Positions 44,370-64,000 of a stretch of DNA of 64,000 nt are shown in pieces. The notes beneath the pieces were generated by a model that saw only the letters and a list, made by a program, of their open reading frames with translations, did not search any database and was not told where the DNA came from. A program made the translations under genes and the position numbers. The DNA is from Photorhabdus luminescens subsp. luminescens (GTDB lineage: Bacteria > Pseudomonadota > Gammaproteobacteria > Enterobacterales > Enterobacteriaceae). Within the stretch, counting starts at the first letter, position 1, and every line of letters starts with the position of its first letter. Location: the NCBI RefSeq assembly GCF_001083805.1, contig NZ_JXSK01000002.1, positions 62,001-126,000 of the forward strand, written 5' to 3'.

Positions 44370-45203
44370 TTAACTTAATTCAGGAATCAACATGCGAATA
44401 AAACTCGCCTGCTCAGGCGATATATCATCGTCGTTCGTTATAGCGTTCTTAACAAGCGCCAAATTCGTGTCATTAATAAAATTTTCAGTGATTGAAATTC
44501 CTGACGCCAAATTTTTAACTTGGTGATAGTGTGTACAAGGAGTGAAAACAATATCACCAGGATTCTGTATACAATGAATACCCTGCGCCTGAGTGAAATC
44601 GGGATATAAGGCCAGATCGGGGTTAAAAGCATCAACTTTGCCATAACCTATTTTCGCTGCTTCTTCCGGCCCATAAAATACCCACTCTTTTCGACCACTA
44701 ATAACCGCATTCCAGGCGTGAGTAGAAGCAATGTCCAAATGCAAACGAGAACCACTGTTTTTAGGTCCCATATAAATCCAGCGAAGTAATAGTAATGCTG
44801 CTTCATTATGCAAAATATCGTCTGCAACACGCTGACGAATCAAGCAGGAAAAATAGTCAGGGACCTCATAATCATTCACCAATTCTTTAAAATAGAGCGA
44901 AAACTGCCACGCAGAAGCATAATAAGGATCGAGTTCTTCCACATCTTTTATATAATCAATATAGTCACCAAGAGACATATATTTATTATCTTTATTATTT
45001 GATGATCGAAATACTTTTATCAGGTGATGACCAAATTTTTGCTGAAAATAGTTCCATGTCCACTTCGTTCTTGCTACCCACTGTTCAGCCCCTCCTCGAA
45101 TAATAAAAGGGACTCTATCCAGCATACAAGTAAACACATCCTCGATAGATGGCATGGTGAACTCTACACATTTCTGACATCCAGAATTAAAAAAATCCAT
45201 CAT
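44370..45203 (-). CDS. JmjC/cupin-8 Fe(II)/2-oxoglutarate oxygenase
   Basis: A 277-residue oxygenase of the JmjC/cupin-8 family. 'VPFIIRGGAEQWVARTKWTWNYFQQKFG' opens the domain. The iron ligands are His155 and Asp157 in 'RLHLDIASTHAWNAVISGRKEWVFY' and His227 in 'FTPCTHYHQVKNL', forming the HxD...H triad. Bacterial relatives hydroxylate amino-acid side chains. It is the last gene of the leftward biosynthetic operon, 101 bp after the acylase. In this context it should hydroxylate a peptide residue or free amino acid; substrate unknown. Confidence 0.87.
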   Translation of the reverse strand: MMDFFNSGCQKCVEFTMPSIEDVFTCMLDRVPFIIRGGAEQWVARTKWTWNYFQQKFGHHLIKVFRSSNNKDNKYMSLGDYIDYIKDVEELDPYYASAWQFSLYFKELVNDYEVPDYFSCLIRQRVADDILHNEAALLLLRWIYMGPKNSGSRLHLDIASTHAWNAVISGRKEWVFYGPEEAAKIGYGKVDAFNPDLALYPDFTQAQGIHCIQNPGDIVFTPCTHYHQVKNLASGISITENFINDTNLALVKNAITNDDDISPEQASFIRMLIPELS

Positions 45204-45304
45204 ATTTATATAGTTCCAAAGAATAAGTAGTATTTTCGATAACTGACGGAACCCATCCGCCAGTTAATAATTTTATCCAGCCAAGGCCCAAATAATCTGA
45301 TTGC

Positions 45305-47728
45305 CTAATGTTGGATAACCAATTCTGAAATAGTTGATCGTTTAATCTCTTCTGGCCGATAAGGCAACGGCAATAGCTGTTTATAATGAGAATAAAACCG
45401 GCTCTGATCCGCAAAATGAGGCGAATCAATATCAGAAGATTGCGAATAAGTGAGTAACCCACGCGCATTAGGTCCTTGTTGATCAAATGCCACCAGCATT
45501 ATCCAACTAGAACCATAACGAATATGATATCCTTGATCAGTTAGCTCCGATTCCAATGGCTCACCAGTCACCACATCATTACCCACAGTATAATGATGTT
45601 TAGGAAACAGGGTTTCATCCCCATCCCACGGAGCGATCATATTAAAGCCGCCTTCTTCTCCAAACAACCCCGGCCAACTCATGCGATTATCTGCCGGTTT
45701 ACCGTCAGGCGCGGTACTTTCAATAAATTGAAACTGACTCACCGGAGTATCTAAAGCCAGCCCCGCATTATTCACATTAGCAACCGCTCGTGCTAACAAG
45801 GTGACAAACTCTTCACTTTGTTTTAATTGACGCGGTGTTGTTGCCGGATGGGCTATATCAAACGGTACGACAAAGTGTTCTTGTTGATCAATTAAAAAAG
45901 CCAATTCACGGAATATAATAGCGCCCCGGCTATCAGCATTAAATTCACCGTTCCATTGTGATAGTAATTGGCATGCTTGAGTAATATCCACCTTTATTCC
46001 ATTCTCCAATCTAATTAATCGGTTCGGTGTTTTATCACATAGGGTAACCACATCCTTTAATATCAGTTCGGCTAAATATGAACGCTCAGAGAATAACGCC
46101 CGTTCTAATTCCATTAGAGAAAATCGCTTATTATCACCCGCCGCGTCCTGTATTAGTTGCAATCCCATACGCGTTCTGAACGACAGGGGTTTTCGTTCAT
46201 TACCCAGAAGTGGGGAAAAACCTTCGAGTAAATGTTCCAAGTTCGTTGCCCAGTGAGAATCATTGGAATTTTGTACATAGGATGTTTCCACAAGCTGCGG
46301 GATCTGATCATAACCCAAGGCTTCGGTAAAAATCATGGATGATGAGTTACCCGGTAAAATAGTCACGTCATACTTCTCACGGGCGGCCGCCAAGGTTTCG
46401 TCATTATTCAATAATTGAATGGCTTCAAGAGACAATGCCGGTACCGCTCTATCACCCATAAAAATACCAACGCCTTCTTTACCGGTTAACAACGTGTTAT
46501 TAAAAGCCAAGCCATTAAAATCTTTATAAGATTGTTTTGCATCGGCAAGATTATTCGCTCGATTCAACGCCAACCAATGATCAATCATATTAAGGTTGTA
46601 AAGATTAACATCTTTTACAACATAAAATTCAGACTCAGACCAAGCAAAGTCTTCATTTTCAATAACTGGCCCAATATCAGTATAAAAATAATCTTTGACG
46701 ATAGTTTCAATACCGTTGTCGGTTTTGACTTCAATATGAATCGGCTTCGACATTACCGGTTTAATAATCCCATCAATCACATAATTGAGCGGATTGTTAG
46801 CAGCAGTTTGCATTTTATAAACAATGACATGTTCAGCCGATGAATAAGTGTGAGTCCAGGCAATGTTGTGATTAAATCCAATATTAATAATACCCGGAAA
46901 ACCAATTAAAGACGCTCCCATAACATCAACCTTGCCGTTCATGACATGATGCACCTGCCAAAAACGCAGGTTGCCTTCATAAGGAAAATGGGGGTTCGCC
47001 AATAACATGCCATTAACCCCTTCAACTTTATCACGGCCTAACGCCCAACCATTCGAACCAATGGAATAACCATTATACCTTGATGTATGTGAAGCCAATT
47101 GTTTTTGATCATCATTATTGGGATCAGCGGCATAATAATCGGCAAGAAATTGAGCAGAACCCGGAAATACCGCAATAGAAAATACATATGCCAGCACATC
47201 CTCACGTTGAATAGGTATTACCCATTCTTGACCTCGACAAGCTTTTGGCAAGATATAACGGCCCTCCTTAACATGGGACAGGTAGGTATTATAACCTGCA
47301 ACAAATCCATCAATAATTACCTGTGAATCGGCACTTAATTGAGGCCACTTTTCTCGTGCCTGTTCCACCAAAGCTAGGGCTTTATAGCCGAAGTCCTGAA
47401 TTAAATTCAGTGAGTCCCCCGGTTTATTCCTATCAGCACCAAAGAAACGCGCACGCTCCCCCCTAATACGCACATAATTATCCGCCATAATGCATATATT
47501 ATCTTGTGCCTGAGCATAGGCGTTGCCAAAACTCAGGCTTCCCAAATCTTGCGCATAAATATGAGGTACACCATAATGAGTACGAATGATTTTCGCCTCA
47601 AATGCTGTCGTGGTCTTTACTGAGTAACTTTTAAATTCGCTACAACTGATTGTTAATAAGACAGTCAACAGTAGTACGTTTGCTTTAAATGATATTGCTT
47701 TAAATGATATTGCTTTAAATGATGTCAT
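45305..47728 (-). CDS. Penicillin-acylase-family (PvdQ-like) Ntn hydrolase
   Basis: An 807-residue Ntn-hydrolase precursor. The N-terminal signal region has a lipobox-like 'LLTISC' at Cys29, so it may be a lipoprotein or periplasmic. The alpha-subunit block 'IIRTHYGVPHIYAQDLGSLSFGNAYAQAQDNICIMADNYVRIRGERARFFG' is typical. The autocleavage site is Gly-Ser in 'SIGSNGWALG', making Ser225 the beta-chain nucleophile. Relatives remove acyl chains (PvdQ on pyoverdine precursors, penicillin and homoserine-lactone acylases). Start chosen at ATG 47728, 2 bp after the upstream stop with AGGG nearby; the longer frame is rejected. Here it probably unmasks an acylated peptide precursor. Confidence 0.85.
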   Translation of the reverse strand: MTSFKAISFKAISFKANVLLLTVLLTISCSEFKSYSVKTTTAFEAKIIRTHYGVPHIYAQDLGSLSFGNAYAQAQDNICIMADNYVRIRGERARFFGADRNKPGDSLNLIQDFGYKALALVEQAREKWPQLSADSQVIIDGFVAGYNTYLSHVKEGRYILPKACRGQEWVIPIQREDVLAYVFSIAVFPGSAQFLADYYAADPNNDDQKQLASHTSRYNGYSIGSNGWALGRDKVEGVNGMLLANPHFPYEGNLRFWQVHHVMNGKVDVMGASLIGFPGIINIGFNHNIAWTHTYSSAEHVIVYKMQTAANNPLNYVIDGIIKPVMSKPIHIEVKTDNGIETIVKDYFYTDIGPVIENEDFAWSESEFYVVKDVNLYNLNMIDHWLALNRANNLADAKQSYKDFNGLAFNNTLLTGKEGVGIFMGDRAVPALSLEAIQLLNNDETLAAAREKYDVTILPGNSSSMIFTEALGYDQIPQLVETSYVQNSNDSHWATNLEHLLEGFSPLLGNERKPLSFRTRMGLQLIQDAAGDNKRFSLMELERALFSERSYLAELILKDVVTLCDKTPNRLIRLENGIKVDITQACQLLSQWNGEFNADSRGAIIFRELAFLIDQQEHFVVPFDIAHPATTPRQLKQSEEFVTLLARAVANVNNAGLALDTPVSQFQFIESTAPDGKPADNRMSWPGLFGEEGGFNMIAPWDGDETLFPKHHYTVGNDVVTGEPLESELTDQGYHIRYGSSWIMLVAFDQQGPNARGLLTYSQSSDIDSPHFADQSRFYSHYKQLLPLPYRPEEIKRSTISELVIQH
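47682..47723 (-). repeat. 15-bp tandem repeat in the acylase signal region
   Basis: The unit GCTTTAAATGATATT occurs at 47682-47696 and 47697-47711, with a third, slightly different copy to 47723 on the plus-strand reading. It encodes Ser-Phe-Lys-Ala-Ile repeats at the acylase N-terminus. Confidence 0.85.
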
Positions 47729-47730
47729 TT

Positions 47731-48711
47731 TTATTTTGCCCTTAAAGTGCCTGTATAAAAGCAATCTCTGGCTTTGAATTTTGATTCCAATATTAATGCT
47801 CTGAGTAACCAGCGATCATAACCATCGTATCGAGGTTCATACTCGCTGCGCGCATGAGCGACTTTGCGGTTATCAAATAGCAACATTTCTCCAGGCGATA
47901 ACGTAAAAGTCTCTCTATTTTCATTAATACACTGATTCAACTTTTCTAACGCTACTGCTGCATTTGGGGTTAAACAACGCATATAAGCTGGATCAAATAT
48001 CATTTCTGGTTCTTGATGTTGACTTAATATGGCAACACAACGGCGGCCACTCGTATTTGACATAAATGTAGGATCGACATCGATCTCAAAGTTTGGCTTT
48101 TGTAATTCGGCAATAGTTTCAGCATCTAAATGAATATTCTTGGTTTGAAACAAGTAGGTTTTAGCATTTTTATCGCCACGTAGACAATATAAAGCGACCC
48201 AGTCCGCTTTTGCATCATGGAAACCATCTTCAACATGCCATTCCAAAAACGCCTTGTTTGTCCCTAACTGCATATTCTTATATTTTTCCATTGGGAAAAC
48301 ATCATCGATAAAATTAAAGTTCTTTTTGTTGACAAACGAATAAATATATCCAATGCGAGATAAAATCGTGGATATCAAAGTACGAACACCCGCCACCTCA
48401 GAACTATTTGTTTGTTCATAAGATAAAGGCGTTAAGCCAAGATTATCAGGAATAGGCAATCCCTTTATCAGCAAATAATTTTCATTTTCTAATGCACGAA
48501 AGTCAAATAGCTTTTTCTGTAAACGTACTGGCAAATTAAACGATTGATAAAAACATTGCCAGTAAAATTCCTCGAAATTATCAATGTCATATTTTAGAGT
48601 AGACGCTAAAAATTCCTGCTTTAAATATGTCTGTTCTGTTGAGTCAAGCTCAAAAATGAAGTCATCAGACTCCTGAATATCAGACACCATGCATTGCCCA
48701 TTTCTATTCAT
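47731..48711 (-). CDS. Clavaminate-synthase-like Fe(II)/2-oxoglutarate oxygenase
   Basis: A 326-residue TauD/clavaminate-synthase-like oxygenase, similar in pattern to VioC, OrfP and AsnO, which hydroxylate the beta carbon of Arg or Asn. Iron ligands: His159 and Glu161 in 'FLEWHVEDGFHDAKADWVALYCLRG' (HxE) and His286 in 'NRKVAHARSEYEPRYDGYDRWLLRALI'; Arg300 or Arg304 should bind 2-oxoglutarate. I chose ATG 48711, which has AGGAT at a good distance, over the GTG/ATG at 48753/48741. The 127-bp repeat lies directly upstream of this gene, between it and the Asp/Asn hydroxylase. Free Arg, Lys, Orn or Asn is a likely substrate. Confidence 0.85.
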   Translation of the reverse strand: MNRNGQCMVSDIQESDDFIFELDSTEQTYLKQEFLASTLKYDIDNFEEFYWQCFYQSFNLPVRLQKKLFDFRALENENYLLIKGLPIPDNLGLTPLSYEQTNSSEVAGVRTLISTILSRIGYIYSFVNKKNFNFIDDVFPMEKYKNMQLGTNKAFLEWHVEDGFHDAKADWVALYCLRGDKNAKTYLFQTKNIHLDAETIAELQKPNFEIDVDPTFMSNTSGRRCVAILSQHQEPEMIFDPAYMRCLTPNAAVALEKLNQCINENRETFTLSPGEMLLFDNRKVAHARSEYEPRYDGYDRWLLRALILESKFKARDCFYTGTLRAK

Positions 48712-48766
48712 AAAGGCTATCCTTTTAAACTGTGTTGCCATATCCAGCAACACATATCTAGGAAAA

Positions 48767-48893
48767 TATACCCGTCATCTTTCAAGTTGCCTCTTTGTTG
48801 GCTGCGCTCACTCACCCCGGTTACATAGTTTTCTATGCTCCCGGGGATTCGCTCCCTTGCCGTCGCGATGCATCTTGAAATCCATTGGGTATA
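48767..48893. repeat. 127-bp palindromic-ended repeat, copy 3, inside the operon
   Basis: Starts TATACCCGTCATCTTTCAAG and ends TATACCC-inverted (GGGTATA), in inverse orientation to copy 1 at 19776-19902, same length (127 bp). It begins 2 bases after the stop of the Asp/Asn hydroxylase and lies before the oxygenase gene, filling nearly the whole spacer. It could form a long hairpin in the operon mRNA. Confidence 0.9.
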
Positions 48894-48895
48894 AG

Positions 48896-49639
48896 CTAAT
48901 CGAAAAGTTCACGAATACCGGTAATAATCAAAACCAATGCTTCTCGTTCCGCAAACGATAAATTTGGATGCCAGATATCCATTAATAAACAAATTCTATG
49001 TTTATCTGAACGGTTATAAGCTTCATGCTGATAAGAATAATCAAAAAGTAAACATTCTCCTTCTTTCCAACATCTGGCTTCATTGGCAACGATGATCTCA
49101 CAATTGCTAGCAGGAATATCGACCGCAAAATGTAAATTAAGAGTGAAATTCCATAAATCACAATGCGGTTTAATCACCGTACCCGGTTGCAACACCGAAA
49201 AGTGAACTTCCAATAGAGGACAATGCCAATCCCGTAATTCATTATTAAAAATATGCCATGTAGCGGGCAAAATATTGGCAACTGCATTATTAGGCTGACC
49301 ATTTTTGAACAAATATAACGCTTTCCAATCTCTTTGCGTTCCCAAATAGTGCTCATAATCGGTTATATGTTGGGACTCACCGCTGATGACCGCGTTAATT
49401 TCCTGTTTTATTTTACCCGCATTATTCATCAATGAGGTGACTAATGGCTGCAACTGCGGAAAAGAATGGGTATCTAACCACGGCGTGGTAGAAAGCCCAG
49501 GCATGATATATTTAGCATCTGCTTGTAATGGCGCTCTTTGTTGTAATAAAGGATAAAACATATCCTCTACTCTTTTTAAACAGTCACTCCCATATTTTTC
49601 TCTAATTCCAGCCAATTGATCTTCAAATAGTTCCAACAT
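48896..49639 (-). CDS. Asp/Asn beta-hydroxylase family protein
   Basis: A 247-residue oxygenase of the aspartyl/asparaginyl beta-hydroxylase family (PF05118). 'LEVHFSVLQPGTVIKPHCDLWNFTLNLHFAVDIP' holds the first ligands (His159, with Asp161 two residues on) and 'CLLFDYSYQHEAYNRSDKHRICLLMDIWHP' the second His205 and the 2-oxoglutarate-binding Arg215. The family beta-hydroxylates Asp or Asn, including in siderophore and lipopeptide pathways. Excellent ribosome site (AGGAGG) before ATG 49639. It follows the exporter gene after a 19-bp tandem repeat tract and precedes the 127-bp repeat. Confidence 0.88.
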   Translation of the reverse strand: MLELFEDQLAGIREKYGSDCLKRVEDMFYPLLQQRAPLQADAKYIMPGLSTTPWLDTHSFPQLQPLVTSLMNNAGKIKQEINAVISGESQHITDYEHYLGTQRDWKALYLFKNGQPNNAVANILPATWHIFNNELRDWHCPLLEVHFSVLQPGTVIKPHCDLWNFTLNLHFAVDIPASNCEIIVANEARCWKEGECLLFDYSYQHEAYNRSDKHRICLLMDIWHPNLSFAEREALVLIITGIRELFD

Positions 49640-49664
49640 GATAACCTCCTGATATCTATTTTCT

Positions 49665-49771
49665 ATTATGATTATATTTCTCTATTATAATTATCTTTCC
49701 CTATTATAGTTACCTTTCCTTATTATAGTTATCTTTCCTTATTATAGTTATCTTTCCTTATTATAGTTATA
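49665..49771 (-). repeat. 19-bp tandem repeat between exporter and hydroxylase genes
   Basis: The unit ATTATAGTTATCTTTCCTT (plus strand) occurs exactly at 49722-49740 and 49741-49759, with variants at 49703-49721, 49684-49702 and 49665-49683 and a partial unit to 49771. On the coding strand each unit contains AAGGAAAG, a ribosome-site-like sequence. It overlaps the last codons of the exporter. Confidence 0.9.
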
Positions 49772-51434
49772 TAGCAGAAACAGCGGGCTTTAAAGCACCG
49801 TTTTCTACTTTATCGGGATGCACGTTGATTTCAATATTATCCACCAAACCATTATCCATAGTGATAACTCTGTCTGCGATATGAAAATATTTATCGTCAT
49901 GGCTAATAACGATAATAGTTTTTCCATTGCGCTTCATTTCAGGAAGTAATTCGTTATAGAAAAACCCTCTATAATTAGGGTCCTGATCGGCAGCCCATTC
50001 ATCAAACAAATAAATAGGCGCATCTTCCATATAAGAGATAACCAGAGCTAAGCGTTTACGTTGACCATGAGAAAGCTTAGTTGTGGATAATCTGCCATCT
50101 TTAACCGTGACTTTTTCTGCTAAATCCAATTTTTTCAGATATTGACGCGTTAATTCATCATCGGCAAGTTCACCTTTTCGGTTAATTACCGTATCAAACA
50201 GATAAAAATCCGAATGAATAACACTGTACATATTCAGATAATTCTCTCGGTTATCTTTATTAACCACCTTATCATCTATGAAAATATCACCTTCAGATTT
50301 ATTCAACAGTCCAATCAATAATTTGGCAAAAGTCGATTTACCACTGCCATTGCCACCTTTAATAATGATAATTTCGCCGCGCTGAATATCCAGATTAATC
50401 GGTCCAACAGAAAAACAGTTCCCTTCACCGGTATACTGAAAACTTATGGAACGCAGGGAAATTCTAGACCATTCTTTATATTCTTCGGTGTTGGTTACAG
50501 TTGGCTCCATTGATAAGTTTTCAGAAAACTTTAAGCGATCAATCTTACGCAGAGATATGAGCGCTTTTACTATGGTTTCCTGTGAGGATAAAATAAAATC
50601 AACAGGCCCCAGTAAAAAGGTCATAATAAAGATAAAGGTAAGAATATCGTTACTTTCCCCTATCCCCCACATAACATGAGAAAATAAAATAGAGCCAAGC
50701 ACCAGAAATAATAATATTTGTCCCCAATTTTCATTCAATTTCCAGAAAATTTCTGATCTAAGATCAGAGTCATTAATCTTTTCTAATGAGGGTAAAACAC
50801 CTCGATTAAAAAACGAATGTTTGCGCTTTTCATTATTATTAAGTTCTTTAACTCCATCCACCAGACTCTTAAATTGTTCATGCAAATTATCATAATCATC
50901 ACGATATATTTCATCATAAGCTTCAGCTCGACTGATGAAATAACGCGAAACCAAAAGCCCTAATGGGAGAATAACCAGCGTGACTATAAACAGATCAATC
51001 GATCTGAATGCCAGAAAACCTAAACATGCAATCACGGTAATTACATGATAAATAAACTGCGGCATGGTAGAGATAGCCCTGGAAATATCACTCACATCAG
51101 ATGTTAAACTGGCCTGAACTTTATGCCCGCCAATCCTATCCAAAATGGCATAAGGAGTATTCAAGATCCGTTTCACTAAGGTACTACGAACTTCAAAAAT
51201 AATTTTGACACTTAACTTTGTCATTAGGTAATTAGCAAAAGAACTTACAATAAATAAACAAGCAAGCCCGATGAAGAACTTAACTGTCCACGATACTAAG
51301 TCAGCACTAATCTGCTCCAATGCATCATCAGTAATCAAGGAAATTAACCAAATACTAAAGAAAGCGCTAAAAGCACCAACAATACTATTAAAAATAATTT
51401 TTAACCGATTGGCTTTAACCAAATCAGAGATCAT
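49767..51434 (-). CDS. PvdE/SyrD-like cyclic-peptide ABC exporter
   Basis: A 555-residue half-transporter with about six membrane helices (residues 1-290) fused to a nucleotide-binding domain. Walker A GGNGSGKST at 360-368, signature 'LSHGQRKRLAL', Walker B 'PIYLFDEWAADQDP'. This is the PvdE/SyrD type that exports pyoverdine, syringomycin and related NRPS products. AGGAG precedes ATG 51434 at 9 bases. Co-transcribed between the TE protein and the Asp/Asn hydroxylase, so it exports the peptide or its acylated precursor. Later steps (acylase) may then occur in the periplasm. Confidence 0.92.
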   Translation of the reverse strand: MISDLVKANRLKIIFNSIVGAFSAFFSIWLISLITDDALEQISADLVSWTVKFFIGLACLFIVSSFANYLMTKLSVKIIFEVRSTLVKRILNTPYAILDRIGGHKVQASLTSDVSDISRAISTMPQFIYHVITVIACLGFLAFRSIDLFIVTLVILPLGLLVSRYFISRAEAYDEIYRDDYDNLHEQFKSLVDGVKELNNNEKRKHSFFNRGVLPSLEKINDSDLRSEIFWKLNENWGQILLFLVLGSILFSHVMWGIGESNDILTFIFIMTFLLGPVDFILSSQETIVKALISLRKIDRLKFSENLSMEPTVTNTEEYKEWSRISLRSISFQYTGEGNCFSVGPINLDIQRGEIIIIKGGNGSGKSTFAKLLIGLLNKSEGDIFIDDKVVNKDNRENYLNMYSVIHSDFYLFDTVINRKGELADDELTRQYLKKLDLAEKVTVKDGRLSTTKLSHGQRKRLALVISYMEDAPIYLFDEWAADQDPNYRGFFYNELLPEMKRNGKTIIVISHDDKYFHIADRVITMDNGLVDNIEINVHPDKVENGALKPAVSAI

Positions 51435-51474
51435 CGAGATTAACTCCTAAATAAAATTTTATTATTGCCTGACT

Positions 51475-53313
51475 TTAACAATCTTTACTTTGCCACAAAG
51501 TGATATTCCATCCCCCCATAAAACCTCGGCTAATAGTTTTTGGCGTTAACCAAAAACAGTGTCGATAAATAGTATCATCTCCATTAATTTGCAAAATCAA
51601 AACCTTATAGCCTTTGTCATAAACATCTGTTTTCAACCGCGGTAGAAGTTGCTTAAGCTGTTCATCTAAAAAACTATCACAGTGATAAATAACCACATGG
51701 TTTTCATTAAATCGATAATTATTTACATCAGCCTGTATTATCTCAATGTGATTTTTTTTATTTATAACGTTAACATTTTGCCGTGCAATTAATGCCAACG
51801 ATTCAACAGTTTCTACTCCGGTAATCTTGCTAAAATTATAACTGGATGCACATATAATCGCTCGCCCTTTACCACATCCCAAATCGATAAATTCAAAGTC
51901 ACTGTACTCGATCGGCAGAGACATTAATGCTCTATGAATCACACTGTAATAAGCAGGCATATAGCGAGTACAAACGGGAGAATTGACAGGCCATTTATCG
52001 TCAAAAGCAACGCCATTAGTTTGCACGCCTAAATATTGATCTTGGCTATCTTGTTGATCAATCCAGTGAAAAATTTCATCCGGTTGCGTGACGCCAAAAA
52101 TAATCCATAATAAGTGATACAGCTCTTCTCCTCGTTGGACCTGAATTTTATTATCTAATATCGCCTTAGCGATAGCGGCTGATGGTTCCTCACTGGTTAC
52201 ACACGCGATTAATGACTCCACGCTGATTTCAATCTCACTATAAAAATCATATTGTTCATACATTGCATCATTAGCGTTGAAATCAATATGCGCACGTCCA
52301 TCCGCTATCTCAATAAACCAACATCCGACCTGTAATATCTTCACTCGGTGAAAATGATTGATATTATTTATAGGCCGATATATATCGACCCGATATTGCA
52401 CAATGTCGAGCAGCTCCTGATAGGTTAAGTTCGATGTTTTGAATAAAGGCTCCGGCCGATAGCGTTGTCGCAATATAGCCTCAGCCAGCTCTTCAACGGC
52501 ACCCGGTTTTAATACTGAATAATGATCACCGCCTACCATGCCGCAAGTAATCGTTTGTGCGACATAATCTTGTAAGGATGCAATAATCTTCTTTTTTTCT
52601 GCCCGTAGTTGTATAGAAGTTTCGCAATAAATGAATGTCATCTTGCCCTTTAATCTGGCCGATGGTACATAATCGCAAGCCATCGTAGAGTAGCTTTTAT
52701 AAACTTCAATAAACCTTTCCAGCGCTTCGCCTTCAATGCCTTGAGCTAACTCGGCACTCACTTCGTCGATCTCTTCGCGGGTATAAGGCTGTTGCTCATA
52801 AGCGGTAAGAAAACTATCAATCACTATCAAGTCAACGGTTTTCCCATTATTTTCCAACGCCAAAGCAACCTCGAAAGCAACACATGCCCCTACACAATCA
52901 CCCACCAGTCGATAATGCTCTTGTGGATAGTCTTGCAAAAGTAATGCCGCATAACGTTCAGCCAATGTTTTAACAGTAATTGTGTTCCCCCCTAAGAACA
53001 GAGAAGTTGCGTCAAATACTTTGAGGCTGAAATCGTTTTTTATTTCTCGGGCTAAATCAATAAAAGATGATACTGGAGCACCTGCGCCAGGAACCAAAAA
53101 TAATGGCGTTTGGTCAGCACCCAATGACACCAATTTAATAGCTTCATCTGGCGCTAAAAAAGCCATAATGTCAGCTTTATTAGCAATCACCAGGTTTTTT
53201 AGTTCAGGAGTAAAAACACAACCTGACATGACCTTAAAACCCAATTTGCCGCGCTCAACAAATAACTGCACCCCCGCAGCCGAAGTTTGCCGAATAATAT
53301 CAACGACTCGCAT
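51475..53313 (-). CDS. Docking domain-thioesterase-methyltransferase fusion (Cys nucleophile)
   Basis: A 612-residue protein without carrier domain. Residues 1-55 ('MRVVDIIRQTSAAGVQLFVERG...') resemble a TubC-type N-terminal docking domain, like that of the NRPS upstream, here probably linking TE to the assembly line. Residues about 68-280 are a thioesterase: 'PLFLVPGAGAPVSSFIDLARE' and the nucleophile elbow 'RLVGDCVGACVAFEVA', where Cys140 replaces the usual Ser; likely Asp166 and His264 complete the triad. The middle (about 290-400) is unclear, with a possible SCP2-like stretch. Residues 470-610 are a class I methyltransferase, SAM motif 'FEFIDLGCGKGRAIICASS'. AAGGTGG before ATG. Confidence 0.8.
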   Translation of the reverse strand: MRVVDIIRQTSAAGVQLFVERGKLGFKVMSGCVFTPELKNLVIANKADIMAFLAPDEAIKLVSLGADQTPLFLVPGAGAPVSSFIDLAREIKNDFSLKVFDATSLFLGGNTITVKTLAERYAALLLQDYPQEHYRLVGDCVGACVAFEVALALENNGKTVDLIVIDSFLTAYEQQPYTREEIDEVSAELAQGIEGEALERFIEVYKSYSTMACDYVPSARLKGKMTFIYCETSIQLRAEKKKIIASLQDYVAQTITCGMVGGDHYSVLKPGAVEELAEAILRQRYRPEPLFKTSNLTYQELLDIVQYRVDIYRPINNINHFHRVKILQVGCWFIEIADGRAHIDFNANDAMYEQYDFYSEIEISVESLIACVTSEEPSAAIAKAILDNKIQVQRGEELYHLLWIIFGVTQPDEIFHWIDQQDSQDQYLGVQTNGVAFDDKWPVNSPVCTRYMPAYYSVIHRALMSLPIEYSDFEFIDLGCGKGRAIICASSYNFSKITGVETVESLALIARQNVNVINKKNHIEIIQADVNNYRFNENHVVIYHCDSFLDEQLKQLLPRLKTDVYDKGYKVLILQINGDDTIYRHCFWLTPKTISRGFMGGWNITLWQSKDC

Positions 53314-53348
53314 TATTCCACCTTATTTATCAGCGTCTATTTTTATCA

Positions 53349-56300: not shown

Positions 56301-59300
56301 CGGCAGAGCAATCGTTTTATGAATATATTGCAACGCTCTTCCTAATTCGAAGTTGTATGTCGCACGCAATAATTCATGGCGTTGTACTATGGCATTAAAT
56401 GCTTGACCAAACGCTTGTTCACTCCACTCTGCATTAATCGAGTAATGTTCTACAATGTGGTAACTTTTATCTTTTAGCTGATGATAAATAGACCCCATTT
56501 GCAAACTCGATAATGAATATGCATCATCCAATGTTGATGGCTCAATCAATGCCGCCCGCTCGTCATCGGTGAGTAATGAAAAAGCGTGATAAGCATCTTT
56601 AGAAGAGACGCTTTTGTTGTTCAAATCAGGTAACTGCTGCGTTATTTCATGAATACTTTGATAAGTCAAAATATCTTTTACACTGAGCGCTAAACCCACC
56701 TGTTTAGCCATCGCAACAACACGCACAATTAATATTGAGTCACCACCCAAAGCAAAGAAATTATCGTAACGACTCACTTTCTCCTGTTTCAAAACCACGG
56801 CAAAAATAGACGCTAATGTTCTTTCAACGTCATTTTGCGGCGCAACGTATTCCGTACTGGTAAAAGCACTGGTTTCCGGCGCAGGTAATTTTTCTTTATC
56901 CACTTTTCCGGTAATACTCACCGGGAAAGCATCCAGACATACAAATGCGCTGGGGATCATGTAATGAGGTAATTGATGCCGTAGCTGTTCTCTGATCTGT
57001 TCAACTAATAACGATTGCGGCGTTTGCAGATAAGCAATAATTTGTTTATTGCCCGGCTCAATTTCCCGTACCACAGCAATAGCATTCTGTACATCAGGCA
57101 ATGCACGCAGCTTGGCATCAATTTCAGCCAGTTCAATACGGAATCCACGCAGTTTTATTTGATCATCATTACGCCCTAAAAACTCCAGAGTCCCATCAGA
57201 TTTTAATCTAGCTTGATCACCGGTGTGATAAATATAACCACAACCGCCAGAAAGGTTGTCTTTAACAAATTTTTGTTGCGTTAATTCGCTATTGCGGTTG
57301 TAACCTCTTGCCAAACCCGGGCCGCCTACCGCAATTTCACCAACCACCCCGATAGGCACAGGCTCGCCATAAGCATCAAGGATATAAATGTGAGTATTGG
57401 CAAACGGCGTACCAATGGGAACATAGGCATCATCAGGTAAAGAGAGGTGCGTCACATCACCGTAACTGGCATCAATCACCGATTCTGTTTGTCCATAAAT
57501 ATTGAAACAACGGGCATCGGCATGCATCAGCTTTTGCAAACGGTTTAAATCACGACCATACCAAGCTTCTGAACCCACTAATATATGGCGCAGGGAATCC
57601 AATTGAACCCTGCTTTGTTCAGCATAATCGAGTAAATTCCTCAGAATGACCGGCACAAAGTCACCCAATGTCACTTGTTGTTGTTCGATAAGCTGATACA
57701 AAGCCTCTGTGGTAATCAAATCCGACTTGCGGCAAATCACTAAGCGACCACCGGTGGTCAAGCTCTTAACGATATCGCCCAGAAAAATATCCACCGCCAA
57801 ACCCGCCATTTGCAATACTGTCGGCGGCTGCTGGAATAAGCCAAATATGGCATCCCAGCCATACAAACGGGCAATCATCGCCGTATGCTCAACCATCACG
57901 CCCTTGGGATGGCCGGTTGTTCCTGAAGTGTAAGTCATGTAGGCCAAATTGGTCGCAGTTGAATGACTCTGCGTCGCCGCAATATTGGTATCAATCCGTG
58001 ACTGGCTTAATATTTCATCCAATCTCCAGACGTTGTACGCCGAAGCCACTTCAATAGGCAAACGCTGAATATCATCAACCACAACCAATGGGGTACCGCT
58101 ATCTTGAAGAATGTATTCAATCCGCGGCAATGGCTGATCAGCATCAAATGGCACATAGGCTAAACCCGCCTTCAAGATGCCAAGTACGGTAATCACTGCG
58201 GCCGCAGTACGATCCATACAAACCGCAATAAAGGTATCCGATGTATAACCTTTGTCTAATAAAAAGTGGGCTACCTGATTCGCTTGCGCATTCACTTGCC
58301 GATAAGTGAGATGAAGCTCGCCGTCAATAACCGCTATTTGTTCTGGACTCCGTTCCATTTGGTCTTCGAACAACTGGTGAATACATTTATCCGCAGGATA
58401 GGGCTGCCAATTGTCATTGATATCACTCAACAGATATTGCCTTTCCTGCTCAGTTAACACCGGCAGTTTAGTCAAAGGCGCTGTTTGATATTGGTCAGTC
58501 ACTAATGCAGACAATAAAGTCAGGAACCGTTGGCTGAATCGGGTTATTGTCGATCGTTCGAATAGTTGACAGTTGTATTCAAAACTAAAATCAAGACCGT
58601 CCTCACTTTCACTGGCATCTAAGGTCAAATCGAACTGGGCGGTAACATGTTCGCTATCAAGATATTCAAATTCAACGTTACTCAATTGCAATACCTTGGA
58701 TTCATTGGTATCCATTGAGAATACGATTTGGAAGAGCGGCGAATAACTTGTACTCCGCTCCGGCTGCATTTTCTCAACCAACAATTCAAACGGCAGTAAC
58801 TGATGCGCTTGAGCATCAATATTAACCTGACGAATATGTGACAGATATTCAGCAAAAGTGAGATTTGCCTGGTATTTGGTGCGCAGCACTAGCATATTGA
58901 CGAAAAAGCCGATAAGCGGCTCCACTTCCGCCTGCAAACGATTCGCAACCGGCGTCCCGATGACAATATCCTTGCTTTGACCATGACGGGCAAGTAACAG
59001 GGTAAATGCAGCATGCAATACCACAAACAGACTCGTATTATGTTGACTGGCAAGGGATTTAAGTCCAATCAAAAGAGACTTGTCAGCACTAAATTCAAGT
59101 AACCCGCCACGGCTGCCAAGTTGTAATGGACGCGGGTAATCCAACGGCAAGTCGTGTACAGGCGGCAACTCATTAAGCTGAGTTAACCAGTAGTTAAGAT
59201 CCGTTTGTAACGTTTCACCCTGTAGTTGTTGCCGTTGCCAGACAGCATAATCTTTATATTGAATGGGTAGCGATGGCAAAGCCGGTTGCTGGCGACCCTC

Positions 59301-62300
59301 AAGCAGTTGGCTGTATATGTTGACAAATTCATCAGCAAGCACGTTGATTGACCAACCATCTGATGCGATATGGTGCATATTGAATACCATAACACTCTGA
59401 TCTTCGGCTATTTTTAGATAGGCCGCTCGCAGCATGACATCGTTAGCCAAATCAAATGCCTGCTCCGCATGCCGCTGAATAAATTCTTGCACTTGCTGTT
59501 GGCCGCTTTTTTCCCCAAGGCTTTGATAGTCAACACGGTCGATCTTCACAGTTACCTTGTCCAACACTTCCTGCCATGCACCAGCGGTATCATGCCGATA
59601 GACCGTTCGCAGCACCTGATGGCGTTGAACAATCATGTTTATCGCACGTTCAGCGATAGCGAGATTGAAGTCCCCTTTAATGGTTAATGCCAACGGCATA
59701 TTGTATTGAGGCGTTTGTCCATCTAACTGGTCAATAAACCAAAGCCGTTGCTGAGCAAACGACAATGGCAGCCGCGCCATTTCAGCTCTTGCCATTTCAA
59801 CTCTTGCCATCTCAACTCTTGCCATTTCAACTCTTGCCATTTCAACTCTTGTCATTTCAACTACAGGCGTAATTGGCGCTATCACTGCATTGCTGTTAGT
59901 TGCTGTCTGTTGTTCAGCGATCAATTGTGCGAAGTCAGCCAAGGTTTGACTTTCAAACACTACCCGAACAGAGATCTGTACGGCCAAGGTTTTCTTGATT
60001 TCCGATACCAATTTAATCGCCAACAGGGAATGTCCCCCTAGCTTGAAAAAGTTATCGGTACGGCCCACTTTAGGGTGGCCTAACAACTGCTGCCACATAT
60101 CAGCCAGTTGTTCTTCCAGTTCCCCCTGCGGCAGGCAATAATTCTCTGGTAACGGCTCTTGCGTCTCTACACTCAGTAACGCTTTGTAGTCAACTTTACC
60201 GTTTACCGTCATTGGAATGCTGGTTAGCGAAATAAAGGCATTGGGAACCATATATTCCGGCAAGGTTTGGCTTATTTGTTCCTTCAACGCCACTGGCTCC
60301 AGCGGAGCGTCCGCAACGTAGTATGCAACCAGTTGTTTATTGCCGTTAAGCTCATCCGCAGTGACAACCGCCTGCCTCACCCCATCAATCGCAATAAGTT
60401 GGTTCTCAATCTCACCTAGCTCAATGCGGAAACCCCGAATTTTTATCTGGCTATCCTTCCGCCCGATATATTCAATTTCACCATGAACATTAAACCTCGC
60501 CAAATCGCCAGTCCGGTAAAGCCGCTCAACCTCACCGTCGAAAAAAGCAACCTGGATAAAACTTTTCTGCTGCTCCTCAGGTCGGTTTAAGTAACCTCGG
60601 GAAACGCCTTTACCACCAACCACTAATTCACCAATGACACCTTGCGGCGCCAAATTCAAATGTTCATCAACAATATAGGCTTTAACATGACCACATACCC
60701 TGCCAATGGGAACCGATTGTTCAATCTGCAATGCGGATTCAATCAAGTAGTAACTCGCCAAGACGGTTGTTTCGGTCGGCCCGTAGGTGTTCATCACCGG
60801 AGGACGGTTTGCTGATGCGAACCAATGCCTGACAATTTCAGCATTAATTGCTTCACCGCCAACGATAACCAACCGTAGTGTGTCAGGCGCCAAAGCGTCG
60901 CCACTACTTACCTGATGCCAAAATGCAGTGGGTAAGCTCATTACGGTGATGTTGTGTTGACAACACTGTTGCCAAAATAGGTCAGCGCTGTTCAACCAAT
61001 CATCGTTCCTCAATACTAAAGCGGCCCCTGCACATAGGGTGACAAAACACTCTTCAATGGAAATATCAAATGCAAATGAGGAGAACTGTAATACGTTGTC
61101 GTCAGGTTTAACGGAATACATTGCCAATGCTGCCGCCACAAAATGGCTCAACTGCGTATGCTCTACCATGACCCCTTTAGGCTTGCCCGTCGATCCAGAG
61201 GTATACATGACGTAAGCAAGTTCATCCAAGCTCTGGTTGATATTCGGATTATCAGATGCAGTCCCTAAAAATGGCTCCATTTCCGAGGTTAACAGCTCAA
61301 CAATGACATTCAGTTCAGCAAACTTGTCTGCATATGCGTTGTTCGTCAACACAACCGCCGGTTGGCAATCCGCAATAATGTGCTGGATTCGGGACTGAGG
61401 GTTGTCAACGTCAATGGGGGTGTAAGCGGCGCCTGCTTTCAGTACCGCCAATATACTGATAATCATCTCAGGGGAACGCGGTAAACATAACGCGACAATA
61501 TTGCCCGGCCTAACCCCCTTTTCGATTAGGTGATGCGCCAATCGATTAGCCCGCTGGTTCAACTCGCGATATGTCAGGGTTTGATTTTCCCCTGCAACCT
61601 GCCATACCAAAGCGGTGGCATCGGATCTTTGTGCTGCCTGACGTTCAAACTGGCATTGCACAGTTTCTGCCGTTGTCGCGATAGAAGATGGTAGCGCCAG
61701 TTGTCGCCCTAAACGGCGCTTTTCGTCTTCATCCAACAGCGCTAAAGAGTCTAATGTTTTATAAGGATTTTTGGCGATATCAATCAATAAGATTTCAAAC
61801 GATTTGAGTAACCTTGCAATAGTGTGTTCATGGAATAGGCTACTGTTGTACACCACTTCAAACAGAATCGTGTCACTGTCATCAATCGCATCGAGTTCCA
61901 AATCAAATTTAGAGAATGCTTCCCCCGAAGATACCGGGGTGAACACCACGTCATCCAATCTCGATTCACCAGCCTCAGTCGTATCCATTGTGAACATGAA
62001 CTGGAATATCGGTGAATAAGCGATGTTCCGACTCACCGCCAATTTCTCCACCAGAACATCAAACGGCAAATCCTGATTCATTTGTGCTTCAATGTTGACT
62101 TGCTTTACATGCTGCAAAAACTGCATGAAATCAATCTTGCCCTGATATTCGGTTCTCAACGCCAGCGTATTGACAAACAACCCGAGCAGTGACTGTAACT
62201 CTTTTTGTTTCCGGTTAGTGGCCGGTGTACCAATGACAATATCCGTTTGCTGGCTGTAGCGAGCGATAAATACTGAAAATGCGGCGTGCAATAACATAAA

Positions 62301-63239
62301 CAGGGTCGCGCCGGCATTGCCTGCATGCTTACGCAACATCGCCGAAGATTGCCGATCCAATCGGAATCGCACCTTAACACCATAGTTGGTCTGTTTCACC
62401 GGCCGCGGAAAATCCAATGGAAATTGGTGAACTTGCGGTATATCCGCTAGTTTTTGTCGCCAATAATCAAGTTGCGCATCAAACACCCCGTCAGCAATCC
62501 ATGACTGCTGAGTGTAAGCATAATCTGCATATTGCACGGGTAATACGGGCAAGGACTCCGGCAGATTCTGCTTAATCGCTTGATAATGGGTGACAAATTC
62601 TTCCATCAATAGAGAGAAAGACAATCCGTCTCCAGCAATATGGTGCAAGTTGATGATAAGAAATTGCCGCTGAGTATCCGTTGTAAAAAAGTCGATCCGG
62701 ACCATTAGGTCCTTTCGTAAGTCAAACGGAGCAGCAACATACTGATAAAATATTGCTTTCAGTTCGGCAGGGTCACATGTCAAGTGCCGAACATTGATCT
62801 TTGCCTTAACATTTGACTGAATCTCTTGCCATACTTCTCCCTGTTCTTCTCGGTAAACTGAGCGCAACACTTCATGGCGTTCGACAATGCGTTGCATGAC
62901 TTTTTCAGCAATCGTTAAATCGAACGCGCCACTCACTTCCAACACCGTCGCCATATTGTAATGTTCGCTGCTGCCAAAGAGCTGGTCGATGAACCACAGG
63001 CGTTGTTGTGCAAAAGAAAGAGGTAACCGAGTCAGCCCTCTATCGACAGTCTTGATCGGTAATGGATTTGATTGTTGCCCTTGCAGATACGCAATAATCT
63101 CTGCCTTATGCATTCTCAACTCAGTAATCATATCTTGCGATACTGCGCCTTTAGGCGCGTTCAGCTTAAGCGAGTCAGATTCAAGGTATACCATAATGTC
63201 TTGCTGTTTTAAGTCAGCTAAAAATGCGGCGATATTCAC
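53349..63239 (-). CDS. Three-module nonribosomal peptide synthetase
   Basis: 3296 residues, GTG start at 63239 overlapping the upstream stop (GTGA). Order: TubC-like docking domain (1-55); C1 (about 70-520, HHIAGDG at 199-205); A1 (about 530-1030); T1 (Ser1071 in LGGHS); a tandem-repeat linker (1127-1156); C2 (1157-1600, HHIASDG at 1289-1295); A2 (1620-2120); T2 (Ser2168, LGGDS); C3 (2238-2660, altered QHAILDG at 2369-2375); A3 (about 2720-3190); T3 (Ser3236, LGGNS). No epimerase or TE. By-eye pocket codes: A1 DIESIGTVLK, A3 DIESIGTIVK (basic-residue type, compare a Lys code DAESIGSVCK as I recall), A2 DIGDIVIID, no match recalled. Product is passed to the separate TE protein. Confidence 0.93.
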   Translation of the reverse strand: MNIAAFLADLKQQDIMVYLESDSLKLNAPKGAVSQDMITELRMHKAEIIAYLQGQQSNPLPIKTVDRGLTRLPLSFAQQRLWFIDQLFGSSEHYNMATVLEVSGAFDLTIAEKVMQRIVERHEVLRSVYREEQGEVWQEIQSNVKAKINVRHLTCDPAELKAIFYQYVAAPFDLRKDLMVRIDFFTTDTQRQFLIINLHHIAGDGLSFSLLMEEFVTHYQAIKQNLPESLPVLPVQYADYAYTQQSWIADGVFDAQLDYWRQKLADIPQVHQFPLDFPRPVKQTNYGVKVRFRLDRQSSAMLRKHAGNAGATLFMLLHAAFSVFIARYSQQTDIVIGTPATNRKQKELQSLLGLFVNTLALRTEYQGKIDFMQFLQHVKQVNIEAQMNQDLPFDVLVEKLAVSRNIAYSPIFQFMFTMDTTEAGESRLDDVVFTPVSSGEAFSKFDLELDAIDDSDTILFEVVYNSSLFHEHTIARLLKSFEILLIDIAKNPYKTLDSLALLDEDEKRRLGRQLALPSSIATTAETVQCQFERQAAQRSDATALVWQVAGENQTLTYRELNQRANRLAHHLIEKGVRPGNIVALCLPRSPEMIISILAVLKAGAAYTPIDVDNPQSRIQHIIADCQPAVVLTNNAYADKFAELNVIVELLTSEMEPFLGTASDNPNINQSLDELAYVMYTSGSTGKPKGVMVEHTQLSHFVAAALAMYSVKPDDNVLQFSSFAFDISIEECFVTLCAGAALVLRNDDWLNSADLFWQQCCQHNITVMSLPTAFWHQVSSGDALAPDTLRLVIVGGEAINAEIVRHWFASANRPPVMNTYGPTETTVLASYYLIESALQIEQSVPIGRVCGHVKAYIVDEHLNLAPQGVIGELVVGGKGVSRGYLNRPEEQQKSFIQVAFFDGEVERLYRTGDLARFNVHGEIEYIGRKDSQIKIRGFRIELGEIENQLIAIDGVRQAVVTADELNGNKQLVAYYVADAPLEPVALKEQISQTLPEYMVPNAFISLTSIPMTVNGKVDYKALLSVETQEPLPENYCLPQGELEEQLADMWQQLLGHPKVGRTDNFFKLGGHSLLAIKLVSEIKKTLAVQISVRVVFESQTLADFAQLIAEQQTATNSNAVIAPITPVVEMTRVEMARVEMARVEMARVEMARAEMARLPLSFAQQRLWFIDQLDGQTPQYNMPLALTIKGDFNLAIAERAINMIVQRHQVLRTVYRHDTAGAWQEVLDKVTVKIDRVDYQSLGEKSGQQQVQEFIQRHAEQAFDLANDVMLRAAYLKIAEDQSVMVFNMHHIASDGWSINVLADEFVNIYSQLLEGRQQPALPSLPIQYKDYAVWQRQQLQGETLQTDLNYWLTQLNELPPVHDLPLDYPRPLQLGSRGGLLEFSADKSLLIGLKSLASQHNTSLFVVLHAAFTLLLARHGQSKDIVIGTPVANRLQAEVEPLIGFFVNMLVLRTKYQANLTFAEYLSHIRQVNIDAQAHQLLPFELLVEKMQPERSTSYSPLFQIVFSMDTNESKVLQLSNVEFEYLDSEHVTAQFDLTLDASESEDGLDFSFEYNCQLFERSTITRFSQRFLTLLSALVTDQYQTAPLTKLPVLTEQERQYLLSDINDNWQPYPADKCIHQLFEDQMERSPEQIAVIDGELHLTYRQVNAQANQVAHFLLDKGYTSDTFIAVCMDRTAAAVITVLGILKAGLAYVPFDADQPLPRIEYILQDSGTPLVVVDDIQRLPIEVASAYNVWRLDEILSQSRIDTNIAATQSHSTATNLAYMTYTSGTTGHPKGVMVEHTAMIARLYGWDAIFGLFQQPPTVLQMAGLAVDIFLGDIVKSLTTGGRLVICRKSDLITTEALYQLIEQQQVTLGDFVPVILRNLLDYAEQSRVQLDSLRHILVGSEAWYGRDLNRLQKLMHADARCFNIYGQTESVIDASYGDVTHLSLPDDAYVPIGTPFANTHIYILDAYGEPVPIGVVGEIAVGGPGLARGYNRNSELTQQKFVKDNLSGGCGYIYHTGDQARLKSDGTLEFLGRNDDQIKLRGFRIELAEIDAKLRALPDVQNAIAVVREIEPGNKQIIAYLQTPQSLLVEQIREQLRHQLPHYMIPSAFVCLDAFPVSITGKVDKEKLPAPETSAFTSTEYVAPQNDVERTLASIFAVVLKQEKVSRYDNFFALGGDSILIVRVVAMAKQVGLALSVKDILTYQSIHEITQQLPDLNNKSVSSKDAYHAFSLLTDDERAALIEPSTLDDAYSLSSLQMGSIYHQLKDKSYHIVEHYSINAEWSEQAFGQAFNAIVQRHELLRATYNFELGRALQYIHKTIALPVTLNDCRHLSVQEFEHQLDHCLEQENNNFFVENELMWRIHVFIDANNTFALVLSHQHAILDGWSVANLKVEFMENYLSVLSGGSIPPRADLPHYGEYIAEELSAIDGPEHKAYWQQIANAAVLPDWTGKGVTQHYSARLELSYLHDDLQQLATQLKVPLRTLLLAVHVYVLAKINGTDAITSSVVSHGRLEVEGAESCLGLFLNTPPVNADIHQQTWASLIEQLTEYSTASWPYRHYPVAVMQEEFKCDYSGALFNYVDFHVSDELQTTQDVEPEQADDHEYERVGYGYDFVCHHSSANSFLVLQLALTQSVFRQYQAGQILAYYETAIKSMLVSQRHHLGHADYLVPDQIQHLHQLAGHASSIANDCTSLTQLFARVAHQIPDEVALSGPWGSMNYTQLALAADKLAALLIARGIGVNDTVGIYLSSSPEVVISVLAILQANATFVPLATDYPAERIAHIINDADIQLIVSQRSESRTLPVDEQNIVMVDEIESVDTAVVAQEVALSAPERIAYIMYTSGSTGTPKGIKISHHNLLSYYEAVKRYYSTNSAHTVLQIANIGFDIFIEELMLSVFSGGRLVLDSHKTAYSVKQLCQLIDAQKVTLISVPTALWHEWTYQLTADDVKQLVEHLKVCIVGGEAMRMELLALWQQKTQGEIRLFNTYGPTETTIVATAIDVTQLDALTDAVVPIGRPLAHCQTYVLDSQGGLVPPGVIGELYIAGDALSLGYVNNPEQNAAQFVEMAILPEQAVRLYKTGDRVYWNNDGELVYVGRLDNQVKIRGFRIETREIESALSAIDGVATSIVRVIVDATGEKQLGAWLVMPEGTEIDAVIPPIREQLKTRLPEYMAPTLYAVIAAIPTTANGKVNFAALPEPKPCITQGLDRIAETEIEKQLVQLCADALKLPLSMVRLTASFIELGGNSLTLLRFLHQIQQTFAVTVSVADIMTASDLAILALIIERKQLQLAEQVNQGHNSVAEEGWL
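59776..59862 (-). repeat. 15-bp tandem repeat in the T1-C2 linker of the NRPS
   Basis: Six units of GCCATTTCAACTCTT (with small changes) run from 59776 to 59862. In protein they give repeated Val-Glu-Met-Ala-Arg (residues about 1127-1156) between the first carrier domain and the second condensation domain. The period is 5 codons, so copy change would lengthen or shorten the linker without a frameshift. Confidence 0.9.
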
Positions 63240-64000
63240 AGTTCAACGACCTCCCTTTCTCCCCCAATCTGTTTATGTCGTTCGGCAAGCTGCTGCTCAA
63301 CATACTGTGCTAAAGCAAACAGAGTGTCATAGACGTAAAAATCCTTTACCGACAGTTCTATCTTCAATTCTTCGCTGATGACACTGCCGAGTTTGACAAA
63401 TTGCAGTGAGTGAATACCGAGCTGTACAAACCGGGCCGCAGTATTGATTCGCTCCAAGCCAAGCTCTCTATGGAACAATTCAGCCAACTGCTTTTCAGTT
63501 GCTGTCTCTGGCGGCGTAAAAGGTTCTTCTGCGATATTTTCCATACTTGGCGCAGGCAGGGCTTGACGATTAACTTTACCATTCTCAGTCAGCGGCATTT
63601 CCGGCAATAACACATAGCAGCCAGGCCACATAAACTCCGGCAAGATGCGCTCGACTTTATCGCGCTGTTCACGTATGTCGAGCATTGACGGAGCGACTAA
63701 ATAAGCCACCAAGGATTGCCGCTGTTTGTCATCCTGCCTGACACAAACTACAACATCCGCTACATCAAAATTAGCGCGGATACAGTTCTCAATTTCACCC
63801 AATTCGAGACGAAAACCGCGCAATTTCACTTGGAAATCGTTGCGACCAATGTAAGCAATCTCGCCTGATGGCAACACCTTCACTAAATCACCGGTGCGAT
63901 ATAGTCGTTCGCTGTTACCTTTAGCGTCCACATGATCAATAAAACGTTCAGCCGTCAGTTCTGGACGGTTCAAGTACCCTTTTGCTAATCCGACACCACC
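63236..64000 (-). CDS. C-terminal end of an upstream NRPS (partial)
   Basis: The last about 254 codons of an NRPS that continues beyond 64000. It ends an adenylation domain ('RLYRTGDLVKVLPSGEIAYIGRNDFQVKLRGFRLELGEIENCI', 'PLTENGKVNRQALP') and one carrier domain with 'VQLGIHSLQFVKL', a variant core with Ile in place of the second Gly. No condensation, epimerase or TE follows; the chain is presumably passed to the next protein through its docking domain. The specificity pocket is outside the window. The TGA stop overlaps the GTG of the following NRPS gene. Confidence 0.9.
   Translation of the reverse strand, partial: GGVGLAKGYLNRPELTAERFIDHVDAKGNSERLYRTGDLVKVLPSGEIAYIGRNDFQVKLRGFRLELGEIENCIRANFDVADVVVCVRQDDKQRQSLVAYLVAPSMLDIREQRDKVERILPEFMWPGCYVLLPEMPLTENGKVNRQALPAPSMENIAEEPFTPPETATEKQLAELFHRELGLERINTAARFVQLGIHSLQFVKLGSVISEELKIELSVKDFYVYDTLFALAQYVEQQLAERHKQIGGEREVVEL

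Follow-up and report, generated by a model that had tools for sequence, protein, structure and literature searches.

The window analysed here, i.e. the whole 64,000-nucleotide stretch of Photorhabdus luminescens subsp. luminescens, ends in a leftward run of non-ribosomal peptide synthetase (NRPS), oxygenase and acylase genes. Which peptide does this run make, and does that peptide differ from those of related clusters?

Content and identity of the cluster

The genes of the run that had been listed in the preliminary description were all found on the minus strand by gene calls and Pfam. Base 64000 falls within the third NRPS gene, and the features in the window are the following:

63236..64000, minus strand: C-terminal part of odl3 (end of the A domain plus T domain, His7 module); Pfam PP-binding and AMP-binding_C, code DSPLIAEVW
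53349..63239, minus strand: odl4, 3296 aa, a TubC docking domain and three C-A-T modules, 8–10 (Lys, Arg to dehydro-Arg, Lys); Pfam, codes DIESIGTVL, DIGDLGIID and DIESIGTIV
55254..56525, minus strand: C10, condensation domain with the motif QHAILDGWS, predicted to be dehydrating; T9, just ahead of it, has LGGDSI
51475..53313, minus strand: TubC docking domain, thioesterase and methyltransferase-like half; Pfam, Cys in the nucleophile motif GDCVGA
49767..51434, minus strand: ABC exporter; Pfam ABC_membrane and ABC_tran, 89% identical to X. nematophila
48896..49639, minus strand: Asp/Asn beta-hydroxylase-like oxygenase; Pfam Asp_Arg_Hydrox, HxD motif, 89% identical to X. nematophila
47731..48753, minus strand: TauD/clavaminate-type oxygenase; Pfam TauD
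45305..47764, minus strand: PvdQ-like Ntn acylase (Penicil_amidase), start codon uncertain; Pfam, PvdQ as best PDB match
44370..45203, minus strand: JmjC oxygenase (JmjC2, JmjC/Cupin_8), last gene of the run; Pfam, HxD motif

The window edge splits the cluster, about 25 kb more of which lie past base 64000. This upstream part holds odl3 (1136 aa in full, C-A-T, the remainder being outside the window), odl2 (3287 aa), odl1 (3275 aa), a GNAT acetyltransferase gene, a second JmjC oxygenase gene and a class III aminotransferase gene; a propionate-type gene set is found past the upstream end of the cluster. The complete run thus reads ectB-like aminotransferase, JmjC oxygenase, oatA, odl1–odl4, thioesterase/methyltransferase, ABC exporter, AspH-type oxygenase, TauD-type oxygenase, PvdQ-like acylase and JmjC oxygenase, and the 12 intergenic gaps among these 13 genes range from -34 to 142 bases. 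The source genome (5.46 Mb) contains 75 Condensation matches, including many in two other open frames of 12138 (G000:C6) and 10255 aa (G000:C1).

Odilorhabdins are peptide antibiotics that block the ribosome, and form a preclinical class against resistant Gram-negative bacteria. The four NRPS genes odl1–odl4 carry ten Condensation matches (split 3+3+1+3), and their ten modules fit the 10-mer odilorhabdin peptide. We compared the locus of the window species with those of Photorhabdus sp. CRCIA-P01, P. bodei LJ24-63, P. namnaonensis PB45.5, a further Photorhabdus genome (G154) and an X. nematophila-like genome (G416). Each of the 13 cluster genes has its counterpart in G416, where their order is unchanged, and all 13 are also collinear in the four other Photorhabdus loci. 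Odl4 is 84% identical to the X. nematophila-like Odl4. Upstream of odl1 the aminotransferase class III, JmjC and GNAT (OatA) proteins are, in this order, 81%, 80% and 85% identical to those of G416. In the published X. nematophila locus, too, ectB comes first; three genes precede odl1, the third of them being the GNAT gene oatA, odl1–4 span 32.5 kb, and there are seven downstream genes, which were subcloned (PMC8749412).

Gene content, gene order, number of modules, codes and motifs were read directly from the cluster. They make it very probable that 44370–64000 is the downstream half of the Photorhabdus odilorhabdin (odl) biosynthetic cluster, a degree of confidence that covers the identity of the cluster. 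The preliminary description had considered odilorhabdin-like peptides as not supported and had found no known product for the full set of genes; the first of these was wrong, in view of the ten modules, the matching codes and the 13 collinear genes of G416. It had also named a near-identical cluster with a solved product as grounds for refuting its reading. Such a cluster largely exists, the proteins being 75–89% identical to those of G416 by best stretch, except that module 3 differs.

The cluster itself is already known, since odl loci are reported for several Photorhabdus: odl and oatA are described in P. laumondii, P. luminescens and P. kayaii (PMC8749412). The same work gives X. nematophila as the only Xenorhabdus with complete odl loci, and states that the cloned odl1–4 of P. 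laumondii TT01 yielded no detected product (PMC8749412), the latter being a point against the odl identity. The product, the role of the NRPS and that of OatA are published for X. nematophila; for the Photorhabdus cluster, the portions of the odilorhabdin literature examined report no product. A full-length oatA-like gene (82% identity) also lies at G407:C1:1436240-1436692, with the 14 other queried genes absent in the surrounding 60 kb; it resembles the orphan oatA genes described in PMC8749412.

The nine specificity positions of each A domain were taken from anchored alignments, with position 278 uncertain by one residue in 5 of the 10 domains, where a loop is one residue shorter (A3 is not among these). 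Relative to G416, the codes are identical in seven modules, one residue off in two (6 and 7) and different in kind in module 3. Modules 1, 8 and 10 have DIESIGT in common, as expected for Lys1, Lys8 and Lys10. Module 4 is of the Gly type (DILQIGMVW), and module 5 reads DMENSGAVN where the NOSO-95 residue is Orn. The codes of modules 2 (DVWQMIGDD) and 9 (DIGDLGIID) correspond to DVWQMIGDDK and DIGDLGIIDK, linked to beta-OH-Dab and dehydro-Arg respectively, and that of module 7 (DSPLIAEVW) is close to DSALIAEVWK, treated under His (PMC12283262). The code of module 6, DLENVSHVV, is atypical for Pro and is a point against the odl identity.

Module 3 and the modules 2–3 block

In G416, module 3 of Odl1 has no A domain: the alignment makes an in-frame jump that starts shortly before core A1 and lands near core A10, leaving C-T. 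Position 3 of NOSO-95 is nevertheless Dab(betaOH) (PMC6930155), so T3 must be charged by another A domain, for which the Dab domain of module 2 is the simplest choice. A complete A3, with none of 49 conserved sites changed, is present in the window species, CRCIA-P01, P. bodei and P. namnaonensis, and its code is DLFNNALTY. This code has no acidic residue except Asp235 and is unlike the Dab code. The nearest solved relatives of A3 are LgrA (residues 1233–1710) and McyA, which we take to be Gly- and Ala-activating. The 12138-aa open frame, at a different place in the genome, has three A domains with the same code. In published work D235, L236, Y/W239 and N278 are traced to Ala-activating domains (PMC12283262). 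Taken together, the features of the code, the relatedness to LgrA and McyA, the published Ala residues and the same-code domains lead us to predict that residue 3 is Ala or Gly. None of DLFNNALTYK, DLFNNALT and DLYNNALT occurs in the literature searched (shorter strings match four unrelated papers), and it is for this reason that we infer the substrate of A3. We give an even chance to X3 being Ala or Gly, instead of Dab(betaOH), in the lineage of the window species.

G154 also has an A3, but its ATP-loop reads YTAGSKGRPKG and its A5 motif YGLPE. It is the place of these changes that suggests a decayed domain. Their number does not single it out: 4 of 49 conserved sites are changed, compared with 2–7 of 49–55 in functional modules left out in turn. 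Nor is the A5 proline invariant among functional domains, module 9 having YGQTE.

The alternative is that A3 is silent in vivo and that A2 charges both T2 and T3, in which case position 3 would be Dab(betaOH) and the product an ordinary odilorhabdin of the NOSO-95 type. X. nematophila manages without any A3, and the substrate of A3 is deduced from a code that the literature searched does not contain. The four complete copies with 0/49 conserved-site changes argue against silence, as do the three further A domains with the same code in this genome. Substitution rates speak on both sides. The dN/dS of A3, 0.16–0.18 in five pairs among the four intact species, falls inside the 0.06–0.21 spanned by the nine other A domains for these pairs, which argues for purifying selection on A3; yet comparisons of intact A3 with the altered A3 of G154 give 0.16 and 0.15, not separable from the intact pairs. 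A silent A3 is thus a serious possibility, to which we assign somewhat less than an even chance.

The window species and G154 do not diverge uniformly along the cluster. At fourfold sites their divergence is 0.25–0.47 in the 14 windows that run from odl1 column 1200 to the end of the gene and 0.36–0.40 in the first two windows of odl2, as against 0.06–0.32 in the other windows scored. Accordingly high are the dS values of A2 (0.69) and A3 (0.84), those of the eight other A domains being 0.23–0.31. In all 11 scorable windows of the block G154 is nearer to G416 (0.16–0.41) than the window species is (0.38–0.56), although these ranges overlap values elsewhere in the cluster. Modules 2–3 look like two haplotypes, one of them common to X. 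nematophila.

A possible second exchange tract appears in the ABC exporter, where in one window the fourfold divergence is 0.48 for P. bodei–G154 and 0.23 for window species–G154. In odl2, C4 and C5 are 87% identical, a sign of recent duplication or conversion.

To return to an active A3, our reading is that the lineage of the window species, CRCIA-P01, P. bodei and P. namnaonensis would make Ala3- or Gly3-odilorhabdins by means of an intact A3. In the other lineage A3 would have decayed (G154) or been deleted in frame (X. nematophila), the neighbouring Dab domain would have taken over T3, a second Dab(betaOH) would have been gained, and modules 2–3 would have moved between lineages as a block. 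To this history we give half of our credence. No report of the module 3 difference was found in the titles and abstract openings among the odilorhabdin matches listed. The predicted variant at position 3, the history of modules 2–3 as two haplotypes and the tentative roles given below to the oxygenases and the acylase are, as far as the matches listed go, without earlier reports, and we offer them tentatively as additions.

A residue other than Dab(betaOH) at position 3 is compatible with what is published on the molecules. Replacing Dab(betaOH)3 by Ala gives a four-fold gain of activity (PMC6930155), and NOSO-502 has plain Dab at this position (PMC13340244). OatA acts mainly on Dab2, and NOSO-95179, which has Ala3 and lacks Lys10-Dbt11, is still inactivated by it (PMC8749412); losing Dab3 would thus not undo self-protection. 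The NOSO-95A/B/C peptides of X. nematophila have masses of 1296, 1280 and 1264 Da (PMC8749412); by calculation, Ala3 forms would weigh about 45 Da less (1251, 1235 and 1219 Da) and Gly3 forms about 59 Da less (1237, 1221 and 1205 Da), residue 3 then contributing 71 or 57 Da in place of 116 Da. If our reading is true, Photorhabdus would be a natural source of position-3 odilorhabdin analogues, and modules 2–3 a clear natural case of an assembly line that came to insert a different residue through the loss of a whole A domain and not through a point change.

Condensation, release and tailoring enzymes

The best PDB matches of C1 are 7c1h, 7c1k and 7c1p, presumably starter C domains, with a slight lead over LgrA (77.8 vs 72.9 bits), a narrow margin that counts against the proposed scheme. 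C2 and C6, which are 32% identical to each other and about 20% to the others, form a group and carry the motifs LSPLQEGI/LAPLQEGI and HHLxSDH, which we take to be those of dual E/C domains. A dual E/C-like C6 fits D-Orn5, the only D-residue of NOSO-95 (PMC6930155). C2 looks like a dual E/C domain as well, which would predict D-Lys1, contrary to NOSO-95; this counts against the odl identity.

The motif QHAILDGWS of C10 is present in all six loci, and among solved C domains those of McyA and AmbE come closest. Published work assigns the odl C domain that follows dehydro-Arg to the dehydrating C domains, downstream of a TE-type T domain, and proposes that hydroxylation comes first (PMC10880069). 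By its motifs the cluster agrees: T9 reads LGGDSI, so that at dehydro-Arg9 a TE-type T domain is followed by a C domain of predicted dehydrating type.

The thioesterase has Cys in place of the usual Ser (GDCVGA) in 6/6 loci, and no eleventh module is found in the cluster. Thus putrescine may be joined by the thioesterase or by a separate enzyme. The methyltransferase half is present in 5/5 Photorhabdus and absent in X. nematophila, where the thioesterase is fused to Odl4. A methylated Photorhabdus product is possible; as this half has no known role in NOSO-95, it counts against the odl identity.

The preliminary description had seen three different oxygenase folds in the run. They are rather three families of 2-oxoglutarate oxygenase, all of which share the double-stranded beta-helix, and a fourth oxygenase, the second JmjC (JmjC1), is encoded upstream of the window. 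All four have HxD/E motifs. Its expectation of several hydroxylated residues in one peptide fits, the oxygenases having plausible targets in odilorhabdin. Human AspH is the nearest to the AspH-type enzyme in the PDB, making the latter, we propose, the natural candidate for Dab beta-hydroxylase. The TauD-type enzyme, whose nearest PDB entries are 6daw (a non-heme iron hydroxylase), a Lys 3-hydroxylase, AsnO, clavaminate synthase and Arg beta-hydroxylases, is proposed to oxidise Arg9. The closest solved relatives of JmjC2 and JmjC1 are JMJD6 and JMJD5 respectively. JMJD6 reportedly yields 5S-hydroxylysine, to go by the title of Mantri 2011. Since (5S)-hydroxylysine is present in NOSO-95A (PMC6930155), JmjC2 is proposed as the Lys 5-hydroxylase. 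In G416 JmjC2 matches as two pieces in different frames (residues 1–92 and 96–276) and looks broken.

Could the oxygenase genes be separately transcribed neighbours with no role in the NRPS pathway? Gaps of 127 (ABC/AspH), 142 (AspH/TauD) and 101 bases (acylase/JmjC2) leave room for promoters, and terminator-like sites in 43000–54000 exceed shuffles (15 vs a mean of 8.3, sd 2.8). But promoter-like sites do not (37 vs 36.5), gene order is kept between two genera, and the known product needs oxidations of Dab, Arg and Lys; we consider this explanation highly improbable.

For the acylase the best PDB match is PvdQ, whose first beta-chain residue lines up with Ser237 of the acylase; a hydrophobic N-terminal stretch was seen by eye. 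Over the best segment it is 94% identical to its counterpart in Photorhabdus sp. CRCIA-P01, 91% in P. bodei and 90% in P. namnaonensis. It matched 1 of 149 family genomes (its own; one other genome of the genus was in the draw and gave no match) and 5 of 12 genus genomes, its own included, and its DNA had no match in a plasmid collection. The starter-type match of C1 and an in-cluster PvdQ-like acylase with the conserved Ser speak for a precursor that is acylated and loses its acyl chain outside the cytoplasm, in line with the N-acylated precursor foreseen in the preliminary description, these roles being deduced. The exporter, given as PvdE/SyrD in the preliminary description, is by Pfam and PDB searches an ABC exporter of the MsbA/P-glycoprotein kind.

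A pyoverdine-like siderophore cluster, which a PvdE-like exporter, the PvdQ-like acylase, a beta-hydroxylase and a neighbouring TonB-dependent receptor (41233–43326) could evoke, was rejected and has practically no chance of being the right reading: codes and gene order match odl, the synteny with the solved-product cluster of X. nematophila contradicts it, tblastn finds the TonB and DUF2946 genes nowhere in the 60-kb X. nematophila-like locus, and none of 18 scanned proteins encoded near the NRPS genes hit an N-hydroxylating monooxygenase family. The TonB-dependent receptor and DUF2946 genes (41233–44027) adjoin the cluster in all five Photorhabdus loci at a varying distance, and are probably outside the pathway.

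For the odilorhabdin cluster we propose the following pathway, in which the assignments of enzymes to residues (NRPS and OatA excepted), the acyl precursor and the sequence in which export and cleavage occur are inferred. The EctB-like aminotransferase would supply Dab, and Odl1–Odl4 would build Lys-Dab-X3-Gly-Orn-Pro-His-Lys-Arg-Lys on ten modules, the starter-type C1 adding an acyl chain to Lys1 and C6 epimerising Orn5. Dab would be beta-hydroxylated by the AspH-type enzyme, Arg9 oxidised by the TauD-type enzyme and then dehydrated by C10, and Lys8/Lys10 5-hydroxylated by the JmjC enzymes. The chain would be released by the Cys-type thioesterase, perhaps onto putrescine. The ABC transporter would export the acylated peptide and the PvdQ-like acylase free Lys1. 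OatA would acetylate Dab2, protecting the producer.

Comparison with known systems

The closest known system is the odilorhabdin (NOSO-95A/B/C) cluster of X. nematophila, with the same 13 genes, the same order and ten condensation domains. Disparities nevertheless appear: A3 is present here and missing in G416; the thioesterase is here a separate protein with a methyltransferase half, and there part of Odl4; JmjC2 is whole here, and there divided between two frames. The odl loci of P. bodei, P. namnaonensis, CRCIA-P01 and G154 hold all 15 queried genes, neighbours included. G154 differs by the altered ATP-loop and A5 motifs of its A3 and by its diverged module 2–3 block.

The glidonins of Schlegelella brevitalea are alike in their starter C domain, PvdQ-like deacylation and C-terminal putrescine, and for them PvdQ-type deacylation of a putrescine-ended peptide has been shown (PMC10587159). 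In their case a terminal C domain attaches the putrescine, whereas there is no eleventh module here, and their acylase gene lies far from the cluster, in contrast to the in-cluster acylase described here (PMC10587159). Lastly, in the lead NOSO-95179, a synthetic molecule without Lys10-Dbt11, Ala replaces Dab(betaOH)3 (PMC8749412), as predicted for the peptide of the window species if X3 is Ala.
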